Shown here: in pieces, positions 135-13,866 of the stretch
How positions within the stretch are numbered: position 1 is the stretch's first letter
How the letters are laid out: each line of letters starts with the position of its first letter
Origin: Christiangramia lutea
GTDB taxonomy: Bacteria > Bacteroidota > Bacteroidia > Flavobacteriales > Flavobacteriaceae
Direction of reading: 5' to 3'
Length of the DNA: 64,000 nt
Assembly: GCF_022489035.1 (NCBI RefSeq)
Contig: NZ_JAKVTV010000001.1
Location: 310,001-374,000 of the forward strand
Position numbers and translations under genes: made by a program
The notes under the pieces: generated by a model
The model's database searches: none
The model's input: only the letters and a program-made list of their open reading frames with translations
What the model was told of the DNA's origin: nothing

Positions 135-186
135 GATCTTGTAAATAAATCGCTATCAAAAAAGGAAGACAAAAATGAAGTCTAAT

Positions 187-286
187 GTTATCTATCCACG
201 CCAGGGCGCAGTAGAATGTAGCACCTTCTCCAAAGGAGGGTTGCTAAGGTTTCACAGGGTCTAATCCCTCAACCTTTCTTGATAAC
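187..286 (-). promoter_or_regulatory. SAM-I (S-box) riboswitch upstream of metH
   Basis: Read on the minus strand, the segment contains the S-box hallmarks in order: TTATCAAGAAAGG, then TGAGGGATTAGACCCTGTGAAACC split around the P2 kink, then TTAGCAACC and GGTGCTA. The P1 helix can close between GTTATC (281-286) and GATAAC (187-192), giving an aptamer of about 100 nt, normal for the class. A small GC-rich P4-like hairpin (CGCC/GGCG) sits near 205-212. SAM binding should reduce metH expression. I see no strong terminator between 187 and the metH start, so control may be translational or use a weak hairpin. Confidence 0.92.
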
Positions 287-314
287 GAAAGTTGTAAACA
301 ATGAACTTATTGCG

Positions 315-784: not shown

Positions 785-866
785 TTTTTCAAATTTTCAT
801 CAAAGATAGAAATTCTCGCATTTCTGGCGGGTAACAAAGGTTACCCATCCGTAAATCTTTTTAAAT

Positions 867-949
867 GGTCATCCTGAACTTGTTTAACTTCGTTGAATCT
901 TCGATTTCAGCTTCTCTACTTGAGATCCTGAACCAAGTTCAGGATGACC
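867..949. repeat. Dispersed palindromic repeat, family A, copy 1
   Basis: Perfect 16-bp inverted arms GGTCATCCTGAACTTG (867-882) and CAAGTTCAGGATGACC (934-949) surround a spacer. Shorter relatives occur at 5581-5647 and 11910-11966. All copies are intergenic, so this looks like a REP-like or MITE-like dispersed element. The window contains no transposase. Confidence 0.8.
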
Positions 950-951
950 TT

Positions 952-2019
952 CTAAACACTGATACTCTGAACGACTTCTCTTTTAGCTTCTTTCTTCGTG
1001 CCGTCAAATCCTTCCACTCCGCCAACTGTAGTGTATTTCAATACATATTTCTTATCCGGATAAATTCGTTGATAAGCACTCTGACACATGATCGCCGCCT
1101 CATGAAAACCGGAAAGGATCAATTTCAGTTTTCCTTTGTAAGTATTTACGTCGCCAATCGCGTAAACCCCGGGAATGTTAGTTTGATAATCATAAGAATT
1201 ATCAACTTTAATGGCATTCTTTTCAATTTCAAGCCCCCAGCTTCCAATAGGTCCTAATTTTGGTGATAATCCAAATAGCGGAATAAAATCATCTACCTTC
1301 CTGAACTCTTCTCCGCGGGCCTTGTCTTTATGACGGATTACCAAATGCTCAAGCTCATCTTCTCCTCTTAAGCCAACTACTTCGGCATTCGTGATCATTT
1401 CAATTTTTCCAAGTTTCGCCAGTTCTGAAACTCTTTCTACGGAATCCAGCGCTCCTCGGAATTCTTCTCTTCTGTGCACCAGGGCAACTTCTGAAGCCAC
1501 ATCAGATAAATAAATAGCCCAGTCTAAAGCGGAATCTCCACCACCGGCAATAACTACTTTTCGACCGCGATACACTTCAGGATCTTTAATAAAATATGAA
1601 ACCCCTTTATCCTCAAAGTCTGAAATATTGGCAATAGGTGGTTTTCTAGGTTCAAAAGATCCAAGTCCACCGGCAATTGCTACTACAGGTGCATGATGCT
1701 GAATTCCTTTGTTGGTGGTCACAATAAAGGTCCCGTCATCAAGTTTTTCCAGAGTTTCCGCACGTTCCCCAAGAGTGAATCCGGGTTCGAAAGGCTTGAT
1801 CTGTTCCATGAGATTTTTCACCAGATCTCCCGCCAGGATCTCCGGAAAAGCCGGAATATCATAAATGGGTTTTTTTGGATAAATTTCTGAACATTGTCCA
1901 CCAGGTTGTGGAAGCGCATCTATCAAATGCGTTTTCAGCTTTAATAATCCCGCTTCAAAAACGGTAAACAATCCGGTTGGTCCGGCCCCGATTATCAGGA
2001 TATCTGTTTTAATCATCAC
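952..2019 (-). CDS. Ferredoxin-NADP reductase-like flavoprotein (type 2, YumC/TrxR-like)
   Basis: This 355-residue protein has an N-terminal FAD site (IIGAGPTG, about residues 9-16), a central NADPH site (VIAGGGDSALDWA, about 156-168) and a C-terminal FAD-contacting GVYAIGDV motif (about 285). It lacks the redox-active CxxC of thioredoxin reductase. These features fit the thioredoxin-reductase-like ferredoxin/flavodoxin-NADP+ reductases. Its start overlaps the Met8-like gene by about 11 bp, so the two are translationally linked. Inference: it supplies electrons through ferredoxin to the sulfite reductase encoded upstream. The start could be either of two adjacent ATGs. Confidence 0.88.
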   Translation of the reverse strand: MMIKTDILIIGAGPTGLFTVFEAGLLKLKTHLIDALPQPGGQCSEIYPKKPIYDIPAFPEILAGDLVKNLMEQIKPFEPGFTLGERAETLEKLDDGTFIVTTNKGIQHHAPVVAIAGGLGSFEPRKPPIANISDFEDKGVSYFIKDPEVYRGRKVVIAGGGDSALDWAIYLSDVASEVALVHRREEFRGALDSVERVSELAKLGKIEMITNAEVVGLRGEDELEHLVIRHKDKARGEEFRKVDDFIPLFGLSPKLGPIGSWGLEIEKNAIKVDNSYDYQTNIPGVYAIGDVNTYKGKLKLILSGFHEAAIMCQSAYQRIYPDKKYVLKYTTVGGVEGFDGTKKEAKREVVQSISV

Positions 2020-2602
2020 TCTCTTTTTTTACGATTAAGGATTCTGTTATTGTATTCATCTGTTCCACTTTGGCTTCAAAATCACCTTTAATGGACTTTC
2101 TATATTCATTTAAATTTTCGATCATCTGGCTCACATTCTCAGGGATCACCTCCTCGAAAAACTGCCGTAACCGCTTTGCCGTGGTTGGCGACTTCCCGTT
2201 GGTTGAAATCGCGATTTTTACATGGCCTTTATTCACAATTCCGCCCATGTAGAAATCACAGAGTTCAGGCGTATCAGCGATATTTGCCAGTAAAAAACTC
2301 TTTTTGGCGTGGCGGTGAACCCGTTTATTAAGCTTCGCATCGTTGGTTGCGGCGATCACGAAATGTTTTTTTCGCAGATATTTTCTTTTATACCTGCCTT
2401 TGATCAATTTCGCGCCGTGTTTCTTTGCCAGTTCCTCCGTTTCCGGTAAAAACCATTTTGCTACGATCTCAACCTGTGCATTCGGGCTCGATTTGAACAG
2501 AAAATGAAGTTTTTCGTGTCCCACATTTCCTCCCCCAACCACCAGAATGTTCAGTTTATTGACCTTTAGAAAAACCGGGTATAGTTCGTTTCTTTCTTCC
2601 AT
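2009..2602 (-). CDS. Precorrin-2 dehydrogenase / sirohydrochlorin ferrochelatase (Met8/CysG-N type)
   Basis: This 197-residue protein has an N-terminal Rossmann motif (VVGGGNVGHEK, about residues 21-31) and the ISTNGKSPTTAKRLR segment typical of the siroheme synthase N-terminal domain. It should oxidise precorrin-2 and perhaps insert iron, giving the siroheme cofactor of sulfite reductase. In enteric bacteria it is fused with SUMT in CysG. Here the two are separate neighbouring genes. Ferrochelatase activity is assumed from the family. Confidence 0.88.
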   Translation of the reverse strand: MEERNELYPVFLKVNKLNILVVGGGNVGHEKLHFLFKSSPNAQVEIVAKWFLPETEELAKKHGAKLIKGRYKRKYLRKKHFVIAATNDAKLNKRVHRHAKKSFLLANIADTPELCDFYMGGIVNKGHVKIAISTNGKSPTTAKRLRQFFEEVIPENVSQMIENLNEYRKSIKGDFEAKVEQMNTITESLIVKKESDD

Positions 2603-2617
2603 TTTTTTCTTGTTTCA

Positions 2618-2650
2618 AACCTGTGAGGTTTTGAAAACCTCACAGGTTTT
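2618..2650. repeat. Dispersed palindrome, family B, copy 1
   Basis: A 33-nt near-perfect palindrome has arms AAACCTGTGAGGTTT and AAACCTCACAGGTTT around a 3-nt centre. It lies between the SUMT and Met8-like genes. A second copy with the arms exchanged is at 11685-11717. No T-run follows on the minus strand, so it is unlikely to terminate this operon. Confidence 0.8.
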
Positions 2651-2652
2651 TT

Positions 2653-3444
2653 TTAAGCCGCTCCTGCATTAATAAATTTTGATTGCTTAGGAATACTTTT
2701 CACATTCTGAAAAACTTTCTGCAAAGCATTCGCTTCTTTTACCACTTCACCAATTACTATAATTGCCGGAGCTCCCAGTTGTTTTTCTGAAACGACCTTT
2801 TCAATAGATTTGATCGTTCCAAAACCTGATCTTTCATTTACGGTGGTTCCATTCTGAATAATTCCCACCGGAATATCCTGTTTCCCGAAGCCTTTAAAAA
2901 CCTCAACAATTTCAGGGAGTTTTCCCATTCCCATTAATATCACAACCGTTGCTGTAGATTGAGCCGCCAGACGAACGTCATTTGATAAATTTTTCTGAGA
3001 CGTGGTTCCTGTAATTACCCAGAAACTCTCCGAAGTTCCTCTTTGCGTAAGTGGGATGCCAACATTTGCGGGTACCGCGATCGAAGAGGTAATTCCTGAA
3101 ACTACTGCTGTCTCCAGTCCGTTCTTTCTGGCAAAGTTGATCTCTTCTGATCCTCTCCCGAAAATAAATGGATCACCACCCTTGAGTCTTACTACGTGGC
3201 CTCTTTCCAGAGCATATTTTACAATAAGCTCATTGATCTCGTCCTGCGAAAAACGATGCTTGTCCTTTCGTTTTCCGACAAAAATATGTTCCGCTTGTGG
3301 CGCATATTCCAGCAGATCCCGATTTATAAGCGCGTCATATAATACCACTTTGGCAGACTTCAAAGTATTCAAAGCCTTTACGGTGATCAATTCCGGATCG
3401 CCCGGTCCTGCTCCAACTACGCTTAATTTTGGTGAATTATACAT
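2653..3444 (-). CDS. cobA: Uroporphyrinogen-III C-methyltransferase (SUMT)
   Basis: The protein has the SUMT motifs VGAGPGDPELITVKA near the N-terminus, VRLKGGDPFIFGRG near residue 85 and the GIP..QRG segment that binds SAM. It methylates uroporphyrinogen III twice to give precorrin-2, the first committed step to siroheme. I chose the ATG at 3444 because a strong Shine-Dalgarno (AAAGGAGGT) lies just before it and the start MYNSPKL fits the family. This overlaps the sulfite reductase end by 8 bp. A longer reading to 3471 is possible but poorly supported. Confidence 0.92.
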   Translation of the reverse strand: MYNSPKLSVVGAGPGDPELITVKALNTLKSAKVVLYDALINRDLLEYAPQAEHIFVGKRKDKHRFSQDEINELIVKYALERGHVVRLKGGDPFIFGRGSEEINFARKNGLETAVVSGITSSIAVPANVGIPLTQRGTSESFWVITGTTSQKNLSNDVRLAAQSTATVVILMGMGKLPEIVEVFKGFGKQDIPVGIIQNGTTVNERSGFGTIKSIEKVVSEKQLGAPAIIVIGEVVKEANALQKVFQNVKSIPKQSKFINAGAA

Positions 3445-5530
3445 TTTGTACCTCCTTTGTTCTAAATGCATCCACCCTCTTCAGGAACAAATGCGCGTCC
3501 TCTAAATATTTATTTGAGAAAGCCTCCGTAGGCTCATTTTCGTTCAGTTGATAAGCGAATTCCTTGAAAGTAGTCGATAACTCGATCTTTCCGGTTTCTA
3601 CAAAAAGCTCATCAAATTGTGCAATGATACCAGCCTGTGTATTTGTTTTCACATCTTCTGAAAGCAGCAAAGCTTTGGCTGAGTTCACAATTGAAGTATA
3701 GGAATGATAAATACTGTCGGCCCAATCCTTTCTCTCCAGTGCAGATCTTGCATTATCGATTTTTTCTTCACTTTCGAATAAGAGCGTCGCAATCAAATCG
3801 ATCACCACTCCTGCACATTCGCCTACACCAACTGCCTTGATATATGGCGATTCATGGCCCCAGTCCACAAAATCATTCTCTCTAAGATTGGAAGTATCTG
3901 CCAGGTCTTTCAGCAAATCATAGAAATAAGTTTTTTCCTTGCGGTCGTAATATTCCGCGAATTTTTCATCTGCTTCTGAATTCGATTCAAAATCGTTCAG
4001 TAAGACTCTCAGTGCCTCAGGTCCTCTTTTACTAGGTACTTTCACTACTTTGTCTGCGAATCTTCCCTGTCCGTTTCCTATTGTTCCACCGCCAAGCAAT
4101 ACCTGAAGTGCCGGAGCCACAGTTTTTCCAACTTTGATAGACATTCCCTGGAATCCAATTTCAGCCATATTATGCTGACCGCAGGCATTCATACATCCGC
4201 TGATCTTTATAGTAATATCCTTTCCGTTCGTGAATTGCGGGTATTCTTCTTTTAAAACATCTTCCAGAACATCTGCAATTCCGGTGCTGCTGGCGATTCC
4301 AAGATTACAGGTATCGGTTCCCGGGCATGCGGTGATATCCACTGTTTTGTTATAACCGGTTTCAGCATAGCCCAGTTTTTTTAATTCCGAATAAAAGAAT
4401 GGCAGAAAATCTTCCCTTACATGTCGTATCAAAATATCCTGTCTTAGGGTTAACCTTAGTTCATTACCAGCATATTTTTTCACCAGATCTGCCAGCTTCC
4501 GGGCGCCACCGGTATAAAAATCACCTAACGGAACCCGGATTCCAATAGCATATAAACCTTCCTGCTTCTGTTCAAATACATTGGTTTGCTTCCAGGTTTC
4601 GAAATCTTTCTGATCATCGATTTCTACAGAAGGAACTTCAACGTCCTGTAATGGAGGAGCGGCTTCAAATTTCTCAATTTCGAATTTTGGCTGTTTCTGA
4701 GACAAAGCCGTTTTCTGTGCTTCCACCAGTTCCATAAAGGCATCTTTCCCGATATCCTTGATCAGGAACTTCATTCTTGCTTTTAATCGTTTTGCACGTT
4801 CGCCATGACGATCAAAAACGCGAAGTACACCTTCAATTAGCGGAATGATCTCTTCGGCTGGAAGAAAATCATAAAGCTCGTCAGCATGTCTTGGCTGGGA
4901 ACCAAGTCCACCACCAAGCATCACTTTAAAACCGCGTTTGCCATCCTTCAGTTTTGCGATAAAACCAAGATCATGGATATAGCTTAAAGCTGTATCCTCA
5001 TCTGAAGAGGAAAAAGACATTTTGAATTTCCTTCCCATTTCCTGGCAAATAGGGTTCCGTAGAAAGAATTGAAATGCAGCATGCGCATAAGGCGAAACAT
5101 CAAACGGTTCGTTTGGATCTATACCCGCGGTTGGAGAAGCGGTAATATTTCTTACCGTATTTCCGCAGGCCTCCCTAAGGGTAACATCATCTTTTTCGAG
5201 CTGTGCCCAGAGTTCAGGAGTACGGTCCAGACTCACGTAATGGATCTGTATATCCTGCCTCGTAGTGATATGCAATCGCCCTTTGGAATATTCATCAGAT
5301 ACATCGGCAATTCGATGTAGCTGTTCTGAGGTTACTTTTCCAAACGGCAGTTTTATTCGAACCATTTGAACACCCGATTGTCTTTGTCCGTAAACTCCAC
5401 GTGCAAGACGCAGGCTCCGGAATTTCTCTTCATCAGCCTTTCCTTCCCGGAACAACCTTATCTTCTTTTCTAAATCCAGAATGTCCTGTTCGACAATGGG
5501 ATTTTCAATTTCGGTTCTAAAACTTTGCAT
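3437..5530 (-). CDS. Siroheme sulfite/nitrite reductase with C-terminal HEPN-like extension
   Basis: Residues 1 to about 580 form a ferredoxin-type assimilatory sulfite/nitrite reductase with two half-domains. The [4Fe-4S]-siroheme cysteines are in CPGTDTC and GCMNACGQHN. Operon context with cysH and siroheme genes favours sulfite as substrate, reduced with six electrons to sulfide. The protein is 697 residues, about 110 longer than usual. The extra part (about 587-697) is all-helical and has the IYHSYTSIVNSAKALLL pattern of HEPN domains, but I do not see the RNase-type Rx4-6H motif. The ribosome binding region AAAGGAGAAG precedes the ATG. A candidate Cys/Met attenuator lies upstream. Confidence 0.9.
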   Translation of the reverse strand: MQSFRTEIENPIVEQDILDLEKKIRLFREGKADEEKFRSLRLARGVYGQRQSGVQMVRIKLPFGKVTSEQLHRIADVSDEYSKGRLHITTRQDIQIHYVSLDRTPELWAQLEKDDVTLREACGNTVRNITASPTAGIDPNEPFDVSPYAHAAFQFFLRNPICQEMGRKFKMSFSSSDEDTALSYIHDLGFIAKLKDGKRGFKVMLGGGLGSQPRHADELYDFLPAEEIIPLIEGVLRVFDRHGERAKRLKARMKFLIKDIGKDAFMELVEAQKTALSQKQPKFEIEKFEAAPPLQDVEVPSVEIDDQKDFETWKQTNVFEQKQEGLYAIGIRVPLGDFYTGGARKLADLVKKYAGNELRLTLRQDILIRHVREDFLPFFYSELKKLGYAETGYNKTVDITACPGTDTCNLGIASSTGIADVLEDVLKEEYPQFTNGKDITIKISGCMNACGQHNMAEIGFQGMSIKVGKTVAPALQVLLGGGTIGNGQGRFADKVVKVPSKRGPEALRVLLNDFESNSEADEKFAEYYDRKEKTYFYDLLKDLADTSNLRENDFVDWGHESPYIKAVGVGECAGVVIDLIATLLFESEEKIDNARSALERKDWADSIYHSYTSIVNSAKALLLSEDVKTNTQAGIIAQFDELFVETGKIELSTTFKEFAYQLNENEPTEAFSNKYLEDAHLFLKRVDAFRTKEVQNV

Positions 5531-10367: not shown

Positions 10368-11660
10368 TTAAACCAATGATCTCTTTTTAATTTGCGCGAA
10401 GGCCTCTTTCAGATCCGACTTCAGATCCTCTACATCTTCCAATCCAACCGATAACCTGATAAGATCTGGAGTAACTCCTGTTGAAGCCTGCTCCTCCTCT
10501 GTCAATTGCTGATGGGTCGTACTTGCCGGATGAATAATTAGTGACTTGGTATCGCCGATATTGGCCAGCAATGAGAAAACCTTAGCTTCATCTACCACGG
10601 TTTTCGCAGCTTCATAGCCTCCTTTTACTCCGAAGGTTACAAGTCCGCTTTGACCTTCTGGAAGATATTCCTTGGCCAGACCATAATATTTGCTGTTTTC
10701 TAGTCCCGGGTAATTCACCCATTCCACTTCTTTCTGTTCCTGAAGCCATTTGGCCAGTGTCAGTGCATTCTTACTATGTTCTTTAATTCTGATCTTTAAC
10801 GTTTCCAGTCCCTGGATGATCTGGAATGCATTGAACGGACTCAGTGCCGCACCGTGATCTCTCAATCCTTCAATTCTCACCTTGGCGATGAATGCTGCTT
10901 CTTCAAGAGCTTCGTGGTAAACCAGTCCGTGATAACCCGGAGAAGGCTCGGTGAATTCAGGGAATTTTCCATTGGCCCAGTCGAATTTACCGGCATCGAT
11001 GATAGCTCCTCCAAGCGTGGTACCATTACCGTTGATATATTTCGTTAGTGAATGCAGTACGATATCGGCGCCATGTTCAATAGGGTTTAATAGATAAGGA
11101 GTAGCAACCGTATTATCTACTATGAACGGAACTTTAAAAGCTTTTGCTTCTTTTGAAATTCCTTTTAGATCCAGTACATCCAGTTTTGGATTTCCCACAG
11201 ATTCAGCAAAGAATACTCTGGTATTTTCTTTTGCTGCTTTGGTAAAATTTGTTGGATCTGTTGGGTCTACGAAGGTGGTGGTGATTCCGAGGCGAGGTAA
11301 GGTATTCTTGAAGAGGTTGTAAGTTCCGCCGTACAGGCTATTTGAAGAAACTATGTGATCACCTGCTTTTAAAAGGGTGAGCAGCGCGGTGCTTGTGGCT
11401 GCAGTTCCAGAAGCAGTCACCACGGCTGCGATCCCGCCCTCCAGTGCTGCCAGTCGTTGTTCCAGGATATCCAGGGTTGGATTATTGATCCTGGTATAAA
11501 TAAATCCTGGCTCGGCCAGCGAGAATAGCGCAGCGGCATGATCGGAATTATTAAATACGTAAGAAGTGGACTGGTAAAGCGGTACTGCCCTGGTTCCACC
11601 ATTTTGTTTTACATCGTGCCCTGCATGTAATGCTTTTGTTGAAAAATTTTTAGTGCTCAT
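10368..11660 (-). CDS. metY: O-acetylhomoserine sulfhydrylase
   Basis: This 430-residue PLP enzyme has the MetY features FVDPTDPTNF, VDNTVATPYLLNP and lysine motif HSLTKYINGNGTTLGG (about residues 204-219). It makes homocysteine directly from O-acetylhomoserine and sulfide produced by the sulfite reductase system. It is the first structural gene of the methionine operon and lies behind two tandem Met/Cys-rich leader ORFs, each with a terminator, plus a palindrome at 11685-11717. Confidence 0.93.
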   Translation of the reverse strand: MSTKNFSTKALHAGHDVKQNGGTRAVPLYQSTSYVFNNSDHAAALFSLAEPGFIYTRINNPTLDILEQRLAALEGGIAAVVTASGTAATSTALLTLLKAGDHIVSSNSLYGGTYNLFKNTLPRLGITTTFVDPTDPTNFTKAAKENTRVFFAESVGNPKLDVLDLKGISKEAKAFKVPFIVDNTVATPYLLNPIEHGADIVLHSLTKYINGNGTTLGGAIIDAGKFDWANGKFPEFTEPSPGYHGLVYHEALEEAAFIAKVRIEGLRDHGAALSPFNAFQIIQGLETLKIRIKEHSKNALTLAKWLQEQKEVEWVNYPGLENSKYYGLAKEYLPEGQSGLVTFGVKGGYEAAKTVVDEAKVFSLLANIGDTKSLIIHPASTTHQQLTEEEQASTGVTPDLIRLSVGLEDVEDLKSDLKEAFAQIKKRSLV

Positions 11661-11684
11661 GATTTCTATTTTTTAATGTTCTTT

Positions 11685-11717
11685 AAACCTCACAGGTTTT
11701 GAAAACCTGTGAGGTTT
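11685..11717. repeat. Dispersed palindrome, family B, copy 2
   Basis: A 33-nt palindrome has the arms AAACCTCACAGGTTT and AAACCTGTGAGGTTT, the same arms as at 2618-2650 but in swapped order. It is 25 bp before the metY start codon, in the transcribed leader, and could form a strong RNA hairpin there. Confidence 0.8.
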
Positions 11718-11741
11718 TCTTTTTGAATTTTGATGAAAAAA

Positions 11742-11775
11742 AAGTCCCCCTGATATGCTATTACCAGGGGGACTT
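11742..11775 (-). terminator. Intrinsic terminator of candidate Met/Cys attenuator 1
   Basis: A perfect 11-bp stem (AAGTCCCCCTG / CAGGGGGACTT; 11742-11752 with 11765-11775) and a 12-nt loop are followed on the minus strand by eight T residues. It is about 80 bp before metY. The base of its loop and two stem positions (11757-11766) can instead pair with leader segment 11815-11824 (10 bp, one G-U). Confidence 0.88.
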
Positions 11776-11798
11776 AACGAATTGAACTTTATAACTAA

Positions 11799-11891
11799 TT
11801 AAATTCTCCAGTTTTGGCAATAGCGATTCATACGACGCATACACATCATGCACATACACATAGTCATCATTAGGTTGCCAATTGTTTTCAT
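11799..11891 (-). CDS. Candidate leader peptide 1 (Met/Cys-rich) of the methionine operon
   Basis: A 30-codon ORF begins MKTIGNLMMTMCMCMMCM, with nine Met and four Cys codons in total, and ends 23 nt before a strong terminator. Three alternative helices can be drawn, as in the trp paradigm: 11875-11881 with 11814-11820 (7 bp), 11815-11824 with 11757-11766 (10 bp, antiterminator), and the terminator. A ribosome stalled in the Met/Cys run would break the first and allow the second. The purine-rich stretch AAAAAAGGAAATG precedes the start. No homologue is recognised. Confidence 0.78.
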   Translation of the reverse strand: MKTIGNLMMTMCMCMMCMRRMNRYCQNWRI

Positions 11892-11909
11892 TAGTTCATT
11901 TCCTTTTTT

Positions 11910-11966
11910 GTCATCCTGAACTCGTTTCAGGATCTTTGAAGAAGCTGAAACAAGTTCAGCTTGACG
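11910..11966. repeat. Dispersed palindromic repeat, family A, copy 3
   Basis: GTCATCCTGAACTCGTTTCAGGAT and GCTGAAACAAGTTCAGC form adjacent hairpins related to the copies at 867-949 and 5581-5647. It lies between terminator 2 and leader ORF 1. Confidence 0.78.
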
Positions 11967-12003
11967 TTTGATTCGGGTTTCCAACTTAAAAATCATGATA
12001 TAA

Positions 12004-12034
12004 AAAAAGCCGCTGCGGTTGGCAGCGGCTTTTT
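12004..12034 (-). terminator. Intrinsic terminator of candidate Met/Cys attenuator 2
   Basis: A perfect 13-bp GC-rich stem (12004-12016 with 12022-12034) and a 5-nt loop are followed by T residues on the minus strand. There is no complete gene upstream for it to terminate, only leader ORF 2, which is a strong argument for an attenuator. The leader segment around 12069-12075 (GCAGCGC) mimics the 3' arm and can pair with the 5' arm. Confidence 0.88.
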
Positions 12035-12054
12035 GCAATTATATCTTTTCAGTT

Positions 12055-12123
12055 TTATGCAATAGAGTGCGCTGCGGAAGGCTTCCACATCATACACATC
12101 ATATTGCAAATTATACTGATCAT
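12055..12123 (-). CDS. Candidate leader peptide 2 (Met/Cys-rich) of the methionine operon
   Basis: A 22-codon ORF reads MISIICNMMCMMW at its start, with five Met and two Cys codons. It ends at 12055, about 20 nt before terminator 2. A good -7 promoter element ends 19 nt upstream of the ATG, so this is the first ORF of the transcript. The nucleotides coding residues 16-19 repeat the terminator loop and 3' arm almost exactly, giving an antiterminator of 6-7 GC-rich pairs with the terminator 5' arm. Confidence 0.74.
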   Translation of the reverse strand: MISIICNMMCMMWKPSAAHSIA

Positions 12124-12142
12124 TTTTTCGTTTTCTGAATTA

Positions 12143-12175
12143 CAAAGATATGCACGGAAATTTTTAATATCCAAG
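12143..12175 (-). promoter_or_regulatory. Promoter of the leader 2 - leader 1 - metY operon
   Basis: On the minus strand TATCTTTG (12143-12150) matches the Bacteroidetes -7 box TAnnTTTG. CTTG (12172-12175) lies 21 nt upstream as a possible -33 box. Predicted initiation near 12136 would place leader ORF 2 at the very 5' end of the RNA. Confidence 0.65.
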
Positions 12176-12275
12176 CCTTTAGCAAAAAATAAATTGGAAA
12201 AGTTTTAAAAGCTCTTGTTTTACTGGGGTTTTGAAAGCAACATTTTTTTCTTGTCCATTTATCTGAAACTGGAAA

Positions 12276-12380
12276 CCGCGTTAGGGATTGAGCGGTTGTT
12301 TGAGCTCTCCCGATTTTTAATCGGGAAGCGAGCCGCGAAAGCCCGGCCCGAGCGAGCTAAGAGCGAAGGGCAACGCCCCC
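12276..12380. repeat. GC-rich structured intergenic element
   Basis: This segment is clearly richer in GC than its AT-rich surroundings. It contains a hairpin CCCGATT/AATCGGG (12309-12325) that extends outward to GCGG/CCGC, then a second GC-rich part with GCCC/GGGC. Similar GC-rich blocks recur between genes in many flavobacterial genomes. Function is unknown. It could be a small RNA or a repeat. It lies between the divergent metY and metK promoters. An ORF across it looks spurious. Confidence 0.5.
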
Positions 12381-12426
12381 ATAAAAATTACCAGAATCGA
12401 AATTGGATAAAATGACGTTAAAAGAA

Positions 12427-12456
12427 TTTGGGATGAACTGAATTTTTATACATTTG
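12427..12456 (+). promoter_or_regulatory. Bacteroidetes-type promoter of metK
   Basis: TTTG (12427-12430), an 18-nt spacer and TACATTTG (12449-12456) match the Bacteroidetes primary sigma factor consensus almost perfectly. Initiation near 12463 would start the RNA immediately before the riboswitch candidate. Confidence 0.75.
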
Positions 12457-12470
12457 TAGCCAAGTTATTG

Positions 12471-12531
12471 AAAGGGATAGATTTGACTGATTGCAACCCT
12501 TATACTTCTAAAGTATAGCAAATGCTAAAGC
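12471..12531 (+). promoter_or_regulatory. Candidate SAM-II-class (long-loop) riboswitch upstream of metK
   Basis: P1 can form between AAGGG (12472-12476) and CCCTT (12497-12501). The enclosed loop, GATTTGACTGATTGCA, closely resembles the SAM-II L1 consensus. A 6-7 bp hairpin (ATACTT/AAGTAT, 12502-12516) is inserted in the next loop, followed by AAATGCTAAAG, which resembles the conserved 3' strand with GCTAAA. This is the layout of the SAM-II long-loop variants. I could not confirm the pseudoknot base by base. metK, which makes SAM, is the natural target. Confidence 0.66.
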
Positions 12532-12603
12532 AGAATGTAGACACACCTCTCTTAGCTCTTCACGTCAAGTTTTTCCATTCGTATTAATTAAAAAAGAAAT
12601 TGA

Positions 12604-13866
12604 ATGGCTTATTTATTTACTTCAGAAAGTGTTTCTGAAGGGCACCCAGATAAGATTGCAGACCAGATTAGTGACACTCTTTTAGACAATTTTCTAGCCT
12701 TTGACGAAGAATCGAAGGTAGCCTGCGAAACGCTGGTAACTACCGGACAGGTGGTATTGGCAGGTGAAGTGAGAAGTAATACCTACCTTGACGTTCAGAA
12801 CATCGCCCGAGACGTGATCAACGATATTGGTTACACCAAAGGCGCCTATAAATTCAGCGGGGATTCCTGCGGGGTGATCTCTCTAATTCACGAGCAGTCC
12901 CAGGATATTTACCAGGGGGTGGACCGTGGTAAAAAAGATGAACAGGGAGCTGGCGACCAGGGAATGATGTTTGGCTACGCGACCAATGAGACTGAGAACT
13001 ACATGCCACTGGCGCTGGATATCTCACACAAGATCCTGATCGAACTCGCGAAACTTCGCCGTGAAGGAAAGGAAATCGATTATTTAAGACCTGATTCCAA
13101 GAGTCAGGTAACGATAGAATACAGCGACGATAATGTACCGCAACGTATCGTGGCCATCGTAGTTTCTACACAGCATGATGATTTTGACAAGGACGATGAG
13201 GCCATGCTAAAAAAAATAAAAAAGGATATCATCGAGATCCTAATTCCAAGGGTGAAGGAACAACTTCCGGAATATGTTCAGAAACTGTTCAATGACAATA
13301 TCGTTTACCATATCAATCCAACCGGGAAGTTCGTGATCGGCGGGCCGCATGGTGATGCCGGGTTAACTGGACGAAAGATCATCGTGGATACCTATGGTGG
13401 AAAAGGTGCCCACGGAGGTGGTGCTTTCTCGGGGAAAGATCCTTCGAAAGTTGACCGTTCCGCAGCTTATGCTTCAAGGCATATCGCCAAGAACCTGGTA
13501 GCAGCTGGGGTAGCTCCGGAAATTCTGGTTCAGGTTTCCTATGCTATTGGAGTGGTTGAACCTACTTCCATTTCGGTTTATACTTATGGAAAGAAAAACG
13601 TTGAGCTTACCGATGGACAGATCGCGGAAAAAGTTCGCGAGATCTTCGACATGAGGCCGGCGGCTATTGAAGACAGATTGAAGCTTAGAAATCCTATCTA
13701 CCGCGAAACTGCGGCTTACGGACATATGGGGAAAGAACCTCGTATTGAAACCAAGGTTTTCGAGAGCCCGTATAACGGAAAGATCACCAAGGAAGTAGAA
13801 CTATTCACCTGGGAGAAACTGGATTATTTAGATAAGGTGAAAGAAGCGATTACTATCAAAAATTAA
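12604..13866 (+). CDS. metK: S-adenosylmethionine synthetase
   Basis: This 420-residue protein opens with FTSESVSEGHPDKIADQISD and has the MetK signatures GAGDQGMMFGYA and GGGAFSGKDPSKVDRS. It makes SAM from methionine and ATP in the cytoplasm. The length is a little above the usual 380-400 residues. The gene has its own promoter, a candidate SAM-sensing leader and a terminator (13891), so it is monocistronic and divergent from the methionine operon. Confidence 0.97.
   Translation: MAYLFTSESVSEGHPDKIADQISDTLLDNFLAFDEESKVACETLVTTGQVVLAGEVRSNTYLDVQNIARDVINDIGYTKGAYKFSGDSCGVISLIHEQSQDIYQGVDRGKKDEQGAGDQGMMFGYATNETENYMPLALDISHKILIELAKLRREGKEIDYLRPDSKSQVTIEYSDDNVPQRIVAIVVSTQHDDFDKDDEAMLKKIKKDIIEILIPRVKEQLPEYVQKLFNDNIVYHINPTGKFVIGGPHGDAGLTGRKIIVDTYGGKGAHGGGAFSGKDPSKVDRSAAYASRHIAKNLVAAGVAPEILVQVSYAIGVVEPTSISVYTYGKKNVELTDGQIAEKVREIFDMRPAAIEDRLKLRNPIYRETAAYGHMGKEPRIETKVFESPYNGKITKEVELFTWEKLDYLDKVKEAITIKN

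Follow-up and report, generated by a model that had tools for sequence, protein, structure and literature searches.

Leaders rich in methionine and cysteine codons before metY of Christiangramia lutea: probable trp-type attenuators in series, exchanged with SAM riboswitches in relatives

The metY operon and its leaders

The window, that is, the whole 64,000-nt stretch of Christiangramia lutea DNA that was analysed, carries on its minus strand a group of methionine and sulfur-assimilation genes headed by metY, with two short open reading frames (ORFs) rich in Met and Cys codons before metY and a third inside the group. The features, in the direction of transcription, are as follows.

12150-12143, minus: Bacteroidota-type −7 box, TATCTTTG, 27 nt before the leader 2 ATG
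12123-12055, minus: leader 2 ORF, MISIICNMMCMMWKPSAAHSIA, candidate upstream attenuator of the tandem
12108-12102, minus: leader 2 segment 1, TGCAATA, which pairs with 12064-12058
12075-12070, minus: leader 2 segment 2, antiterminator arm, GCAGCG within the ORF, which pairs with 12027-12022
12064-12058, minus: leader 2 segment 2, part facing segment 1, used in the column count of the 1:2 helix
12033-12005, minus: leader 2 intrinsic terminator, with a U-run to 12002
11891-11799, minus: leader 1 ORF, encoding MKTIGNLMMTMCMCMMCMRRMNRYCQNWRI, 30 codons, with nine Met including the start and four Cys
11881-11875, minus: leader 1 segment 1, with 7 standard pairs to 11820-11814, in a register that is not conserved
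11824-11814, minus: leader 1 segment 2, GCTATTGCCAA, which codes for YCQ
11775-11742, minus: leader 1 intrinsic terminator (3:4), with a U-run to 11736
11766-11757, minus: leader 1 segment 3, TGGTAATAGC, the antiterminator partner in the terminator arm and loop
11660-10368, minus: metY (O-acetylhomoserine sulfhydrylase; TIGR01326 above cut-off), the first gene that would be controlled
10304-3437, minus: downstream genes, namely a metX-like gene, homoserine dehydrogenase, a second Cys/Met PLP enzyme, an Rrf2 regulator, a cysH-like gene, leader 3 and a sulfite/nitrite reductase family gene
5801-5739, minus: leader 3 ORF, MLRISMNTICYMCMCYSPHT, after the cysH-like gene and before the sulfite reductase gene
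5712-5677, minus: leader 3 terminator, found in 23 of 23 same-genus loci

The metX-like and cysH-like genes score below the NCBIfam cut-offs. The shared orientation of metY and the downstream genes suggests that they are co-transcribed. The Rrf2-family regulator (6995-6579, minus strand), for which the best equivalog is CymR (84.5 bits against a cut-off of 195), could possibly provide a second layer of cysteine control.

For leader 1, the sequence-only reading had described a Met/Cys-rich ORF, a terminator and two competing helices, and all of these lie where it had placed them, with standard pairs. The ORF stop codon stands 23 nt before the terminator. The terminator stem, which had been described as 11 bp, is 13-14 bp with a 6-nt loop by folding and by terminator scan; the antiterminator (2:3) helix, formed by 11824-11815 with 11766-11757, has 10 pairs, one of them G-U. 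Because the longer terminator stem extends into the loop sequence, the antiterminator covers about 5 nt of the terminator 5' arm, not 2, and because it takes these bases the two helices are mutually exclusive there. The 1:2 helix proposed between 11875-11881 and 11814-11820 is present in the window with its 7 bp, but its exact register is not conserved in relatives. The codon content described for the ORF, nine Met and four Cys in 30 codons, is borne out, and its density is far above that of shuffled sequence: the 480 nt before metY reach 12 Met/Cys codons per 20, compared with a maximum of 7 in 2000 dinucleotide shuffles, and a density of at least 8 per 20 occurs in 1 of 362 tiles of the window. 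The fold of leader 1, compared with shuffles, gives z = −3.8.

Two further elements lie beside the leaders. Just before metY, at 11717-11685 on the minus strand, is a 15-bp hairpin with a 3-nt loop and no U-run on that strand. At about 11965-11910 and 5655-5580 (minus), adjoining leader 1 and leader 3, there is similar sequence near CTGAACTTGTTTCAGC and CTGAAACRAGTTCAGGRTGACA, which is probably a dispersed repeat.

The single attenuator before metY that had been proposed thus stands in an amended form: leader 1 is one of two leaders in tandem, and a third lies within the operon. Leader 2 of C. lutea scores 122.9 bits with covariance model R1, a model that includes the window sequence. Leader 3 is detected in the same genome by the leader 1 covariance model (R2) with an E value of 0.0035. 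Of the 23 same-genus loci, 18 have a flagged leader 3 Met/Cys ORF, and none of the seven sulfite reductase loci from other genera or families (L153-L159) has leader 3. Among the own-genome model matches that were opened, L100 alone is real, being leader 3 itself, and there is no other convincing copy beyond leaders 1-3. The remaining matches are without a Met/Cys-rich ORF (L099, L104), are ends of other genes (L091, L092) or of an unrelated gene (L090), are terminators without a Met/Cys leader (L101, L102), or are weaker and show nothing leader-like (L093, L095, L103).

Conservation and RNA pairing in relatives

As relatives we took the best 80 of at least 554 metY matches, nearly all of them labelled Flavobacteriaceae or its genera, which together with the window gave 81 loci. 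A Met/Cys-rich leader ORF (at least 5 Met/Cys per 20 codons) precedes metY in 72 of the 81 loci, compared with 31 of 2430 shuffles, a control that ignores phylogeny. Anatomical search for pairs of ORF and terminator found leader 1 in 62 loci, leader 2 in 47 and both in 38, the window included; in these counts leader classes were set by hand for L013, L014 and L024, which were assigned to leader 1, and for L023, which was taken out of leader 2 and in which the model later matched leader 2. Model searches, run on part of the loci, extended leader 1 to L005 and leader 2 to a further 19 loci, with E < 1e-6; 14 of the 19 are of Flavobacterium type, with leader 2 approximately 3 kb upstream of leader 1. 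The genus labels of the conserved loci are Christiangramia, Salegentibacter, Gillisia, Salinimicrobium, Kordia and Flavobacterium. The distance from stop codon to terminator is confined to 20-36 nt for leader 1 (62 loci) and 18-37 nt for leader 2. In alignment A1, gaps are multiples of three in 16 of 19 cases inside the ORF and in 6 of 22 cases after it; in alignment A3, this holds for 1 of 3 ORF gaps. The sequence-only reading had exposed itself to a lack of conservation in relatives; instead, the ORF, the terminator and the 2:3 pairing are conserved in several genera.

These results bear on the explanation that the leaders are ordinary intergenic terminators next to a chance ORF, with no regulation. 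Strong terminators are common between genes, which counts for that explanation; against it stand the 70 of 81 loci that reach at least 7 Met/Cys per 20 codons, compared with 0 of 2430 shuffles, the conservation in six genera, and the coevolution of the paired segments described below. We regard its probability as next to nil.

Several matches and loci were set aside. Matches of model R1 at the level of phylum or order (L160, L162, L163, L165, L166, L168) have no convincing Met/Cys leader before a sulfur gene, and L169, with two weak ORFs, was not used. One locus with a Flavobacteriaceae-like metY region, L027, is on a contig labelled as a Bifidobacterium breve MAG, and the contig is probably mislabelled or contaminated.

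The −7 box consensus, TAnnTTTG, is given in passages of PMC9723704. Of the 47 loci with leader 2, 36 have a match within 90 nt before the leader 2 ATG, which in 26 cases is 26-29 nt away, and 11 lack a box; mononucleotide shuffles give a match in 7%. In the stretch that separates the two leaders, 2 of 38 loci have one. Since the box is common before leader 2 and rare between the leaders, one promoter probably serves both, in which case the transcript would have to pass two terminators to reach metY. In the window, where the box lies 27 nt from the leader 2 ATG, the predicted start would give a short 5' UTR. The tandem layout varies among relatives. Eight loci (L044, L050, L058, L062, L065, L067, L074, L079) have an intact leader 2 and, in place of leader 1, a short MKIAIYNPRRCCRMCS-like ORF near metY with no recognised terminator. 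L129, which was opened as an example, has a TonB-dependent receptor gene (837-4162) between leader 2 and leader 1, an arrangement that suggests a transporter under the same control.

The pairing segments are matched to one another within each locus. When ORF ends and terminators were swapped among loci, the native 2:3 combination was better in 10,000 of 10,000 swaps, both for leader 1 (60 distinct pairs) and for leader 2 (44), and swapping of the 1:2 segments gave the same result, 10,000 of 10,000, for both tandem leaders; such swaps ignore phylogeny and competing folds. The sequence-only reading had called for covariation in all three helices, and this is borne out for the terminators and the leader 2 arms; in leader 1, the 2:3 helix shows few changes and the 1:2 helix has no common register over all loci. 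The leader 1 terminator has 97% of cells paired (43 loci) and double changes in 7 of 11 pairs; the leader 2 terminator has 98% of cells paired and many compensatory changes. At one leader 2 position, the ORF arm and both terminator arms change together, reading C/G/C in 25, A/T/A in 20 and G/T/A in 2 of 47 loci, with none unpaired. A column count for the leader 2 antiterminator gives 93% paired and 5 of 6 pairs doubly changed; four of these five depend on a single sequence each and may be alignment errors, and the alignment is off by one base in five loci. By alignment-free count, the leader 2 antiterminator has one robust covarying position. The leader 2 1:2 helix is 93% paired, with double changes in 3 of 7 pairs.

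For leader 1, the antiterminator is 81% paired over all loci, with two doubly changed pairs and a score reached by 149 of 500 shuffles; in Flavobacterium it has no double change. The Flavobacterium leader 1 1:2 helix is 91% paired and has double changes in 6 of 10 pairs. Over all loci, the leader 1 1:2 helix is 60.9% paired, with a score reached by 232 of 500 shuffles, and in the window's clade its score is reached by 26 of 500 shuffles, a weak result. An alignment-wide 1:2 helix of leader 1 failed over all loci as well as in the window's clade and is not claimed. Several relatives form 1:2 in another register, and in L004, L013 and L071 it is weak (−4.9, −4.3 and −5.9 kcal/mol, respectively). 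Segment 1 duplicates segment 3 (GTAATAGC) in several relatives, whereas the window strain has TTGGCAA there.

The same data bear on a second explanation, according to which a nascent peptide rich in Met and Cys arrests the ribosome on a ligand, for example a metal or SAM, and acts through the same downstream RNA switch. Clusters of Met and Cys resemble copper-binding motifs, and YCQ-like residues recur at the C-terminus of the leader 1 peptide. However, the recurring residues coincide with the antiterminator arm, and the leader 2 arm occupies one reading frame in 36 loci and a different one in 11, which indicates that RNA, not peptide, is kept there. In addition, the peptide around the clusters is variable, whereas the high Met/Cys count is kept.

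Folding of leader 1 depends on how much of the transcript is present. The full leader folds into 1:2 plus the terminator. A transcript that ends before the terminator 3' arm folds into 2:3, which beats 1:2 even when the transcript includes segment 1. Once the 5' part is taken away, the minimum-energy fold is the terminator, not the antiterminator. Because 2:3 wins before the 3' arm is made and the terminator wins afterwards, both switches must work by timing. Attenuation in trp is likewise decided by timing.

Codon content and exchange with SAM riboswitches

The nine loci without a leader (L026, L028, L032, L041, L042, L048, L077, L078, L080) all carry a SAM riboswitch in sense orientation, no more than 285 nt before metY: eight have an S-box and one has SAM-II. 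Conversely, none of the other 72 loci has an S-box in the 900 nt before metY (searched with a profile from ten S-boxes of these genomes; three loci have shorter upstream sequence), and the leader models give no match in the nine riboswitch loci. The exclusion extends in part to other families, in which, as in the 81-locus set, related loci share ancestry and the counts are therefore not independent. Family f5 yielded 23 loci from 80 genomes: 18 have an S-box without a flagged leader, three (L171, L172, L173) have a leader without an S-box, one (L174) has neither, and one (L193) is cut inside the gene. In family f31, which is classified outside the window's class by the search tool (30 loci taken, 57 genomes), 23 loci have an S-box; six of the seven without it have two tandem leaders, and the seventh, L208, with only 252 nt before metY, falls outside the count. 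Five f31 loci (L194, L201, L213, L219, L222) combine one flagged leader with an S-box, and in L194, L201 and L219 a leader terminator is seen. Exclusion between leader and SAM riboswitch is thus complete in the 81-locus set and incomplete in f31, in which both occur in series.

In the window itself, SAM riboswitch matches comprise an S-box at 185-288 (minus), close to the edge, and SAM-II at 12467-12538 (plus), before the divergent metK, with none at the leaders. S-box, SAM-II and Met/Cys leaders, three kinds of sensing of sulfur amino-acid supply, therefore lie within about 12 kb.

That SAM riboswitches hold the same position in relatives might suggest that the leaders are themselves an undescribed riboswitch or a T-box. 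At the leaders, however, every Rfam family stays below its gathering score, and alignments A1-A4 conserve the ORF and the exclusive helices, with no visible aptamer-like core. For the T-box in particular, there is no match in the window at gathering score, and none is listed at E up to 5 in 11600-12640. We consider this explanation highly improbable.

On the whole, the codon content of the leaders fits the pathway of the genes behind them. In a scan of all 20 amino acids for the best 15-codon run before the 72 riboswitch-free metY genes, Met ranks first (5.8, compared with 0.9 in shuffles) and Cys second (4.0, compared with 1.1). For the nine metY genes with a SAM riboswitch, both fall outside the top five. 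Upstream of 29 sulfite reductase genes from the class, Cys ranks first; 20 of these 29 loci have no flagged leader ORF, and one of the nine flagged, L228, resembles a frame inside a gene. Leader 3 is contrary to a simple rule, since before the same-genus sulfite reductase gene Met exceeds Cys (2.7 and 2.0). Leaders of this kind are also present in three further families; those before metY are rich in Met, and those before sulfite reductase genes are rich in Cys. The mean Cys share of Met plus Cys is 0.64 in ten sulfate-reduction leaders (hand-picked from the flagged ORFs of L161, L237, L245, L246, L248, L249, L250 and L252, leaving out L228, L229 and the first L249 ORF), 0.20 in 16 metY leaders of f5 and f31 (hand-picked from the loci without S-box L171, L173, L198, L202, L210, L215, L221 and L223, leaving out L172 and leaders beside an S-box), and 0.37 in 109 metY leaders of the 81-locus set. 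L161, of family f13, has two Cys-rich leaders upstream of a cysH-type gene and a sulfite reductase gene, and L127 has a Met/Cys leader ahead of the genes for a PALP-family (cysteine-synthase type) enzyme and a sulfite reductase. That sulfite reductase genes in other families have Cys-rich leaders, as seen in a hand-picked set, also argues against arrest by a nascent peptide, which we consider quite unlikely.

Proposed mechanism and comparison with known systems

Leader 1 combines clustered codons for the pathway product, an intrinsic terminator, and an exclusive 2:3 helix with one arm in the ORF. We conclude that leader 1 is very probably a trp-type ribosome-mediated attenuator that reads charged Met-tRNA and Cys-tRNA, the second of two in series that probably share one promoter. 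The features behind this conclusion, namely the sequence, its conservation, the compensatory changes, the pathway-fitting codons and the replacement by SAM riboswitches, are seen directly. The attenuation proposed in the sequence-only reading thereby gains support from the conserved ORF, terminator and 2:3 helix, from the swaps, from the enrichment of Met and Cys above all other amino acids, and from the SAM riboswitch in all nine leaderless loci.

From this reading we infer stalling, readthrough and the direction of the response. With Met and Cys plentiful, the ribosome would run to the stop codon and cover segment 2, the terminator (3:4) would form, and transcription would end before metY. 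With Met or Cys short, the ribosome would stall over segment 1, within the Met/Cys run, and leave segment 2 free to pair with segment 3; the terminator would not form, and RNA polymerase would read into the methionine and sulfur-assimilation genes. In an untranslated leader, 1:2 would form and termination would be expected as well.

According to a further explanation, the leader senses initiation or fMet-tRNA, that is, the general state of translation, and not elongation through Met and Cys codons. Met shortage should lower initiation on the leader too, a complication for the attenuation model, and the 1:2 pairing would terminate an untranslated leader. Sensing of initiation, however, needs neither the internal Met/Cys runs nor a Cys/Met ratio that depends on the pathway, and we think it very unlikely. 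For trp-type attenuation, the same complication raises the question of how elongation can measure Met when Met shortage also hits initiation. Methionine is the initiator amino acid, and no established attenuator of the ribosome-mediated kind is known to read it.

We lean, with moderate confidence, towards a more general proposal: a Bacteroidota-wide regulon of leaders that are Met-rich before met genes or Cys-rich before sulfate-reduction genes, often two in series as a multiplicative gate, that have repeatedly replaced SAM riboswitches and in one lineage act in series with them, so that either charged tRNA or cofactor would be sensed for the same gene. The tandem layout poses the question whether serial attenuators sharpen or widen a response.

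The closest known systems are the trpL, hisL and thrL leaders of Proteobacteria, which have a short ORF with product codons, an intrinsic terminator, and 1:2, 2:3 and 3:4 helices. The leaders described here share the ORF with product codons, the terminator and the 2:3 helix, have a candidate 1:2 helix, and differ in having Met and Cys codons, in often standing two in series with a third inside the operon, and in belonging to Bacteroidota. All Rfam leader families remain below their gathering scores at these sites (Thr_leader has 25.5 bits, compared with 55 required, at leader 2).

For cysteine, polycysteine short-ORF attenuators are described in mycobacteria (Canestrari et al. 2020, as cited in PMC13236596), and passages of PMC1262725 report Cys leaders in Actinobacteria, without a conserved terminator hairpin in Mycobacterium, and no conserved RNA structure upstream of actinobacterial methionine operons. 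The likeness is a short ORF with Cys codons ahead of cysteine genes; in contrast, the leaders described here have intrinsic terminators, and Met is the main codon before metY. They do not match the mycobacterial type as it appears from title and passages, a leaderless Cys ORF without an intrinsic terminator. The Corynebacterium ilvB attenuator, as described in passages of PMC11109978, likewise has a uORF with pathway codons, a terminator and an antiterminator, but its codons are for Ile, Leu and Val and it is found in one genus.

Within the phylum, passages of PMC7366714 liken short ORFs in Bacteroides 5' UTRs to leader peptides. Nearest to the window species, and in the same family, are the structured 5' regions of F. 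psychrophilum, for which PMC9723704 (2021) reports strong clues to leader-peptide attenuation before amino-acid biosynthesis operons. The section concerned lists pheA and hisG as examples of conserved 5' elements, and gives neither the operons with leader-peptide clues nor Met/Cys; the F. psychrophilum metY leader (L020) may be listed in Table S7 of that paper. Our literature search, which included a survey of attenuation known from citation (Lopatovskaya 2010) and had the supplement of PMC9723704 outside its scope, recognised no description of a Met/Cys leader in Bacteroidota. With a search of this extent, novelty is likely, not certain: the mechanism is known, and the Met/Cys specificity, the tandem layout and the exchange with SAM riboswitches are likely to be new. 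According to the abstract of PMC6847099, Bacteroidota mRNAs are naturally without Shine-Dalgarno sequences, and the reading proposed here, if true, would extend trp-type attenuation in a phylum of this kind. The main text of PMC6847099, the source of ribosome-profiling data for F. johnsoniae, contains none of six terms for leaders or uORFs.

The S-box (SAM-I) and SAM-II riboswitches share with the Met/Cys leaders the pathway and, in relatives, the position before metY, and differ in that their covariance models give no match at the Met/Cys leaders. Both riboswitches sense SAM directly and need no ribosome. If the attenuation reading is true, the two arrangements would offer a natural comparison between tRNA sensing and SAM sensing for one orthologous gene.
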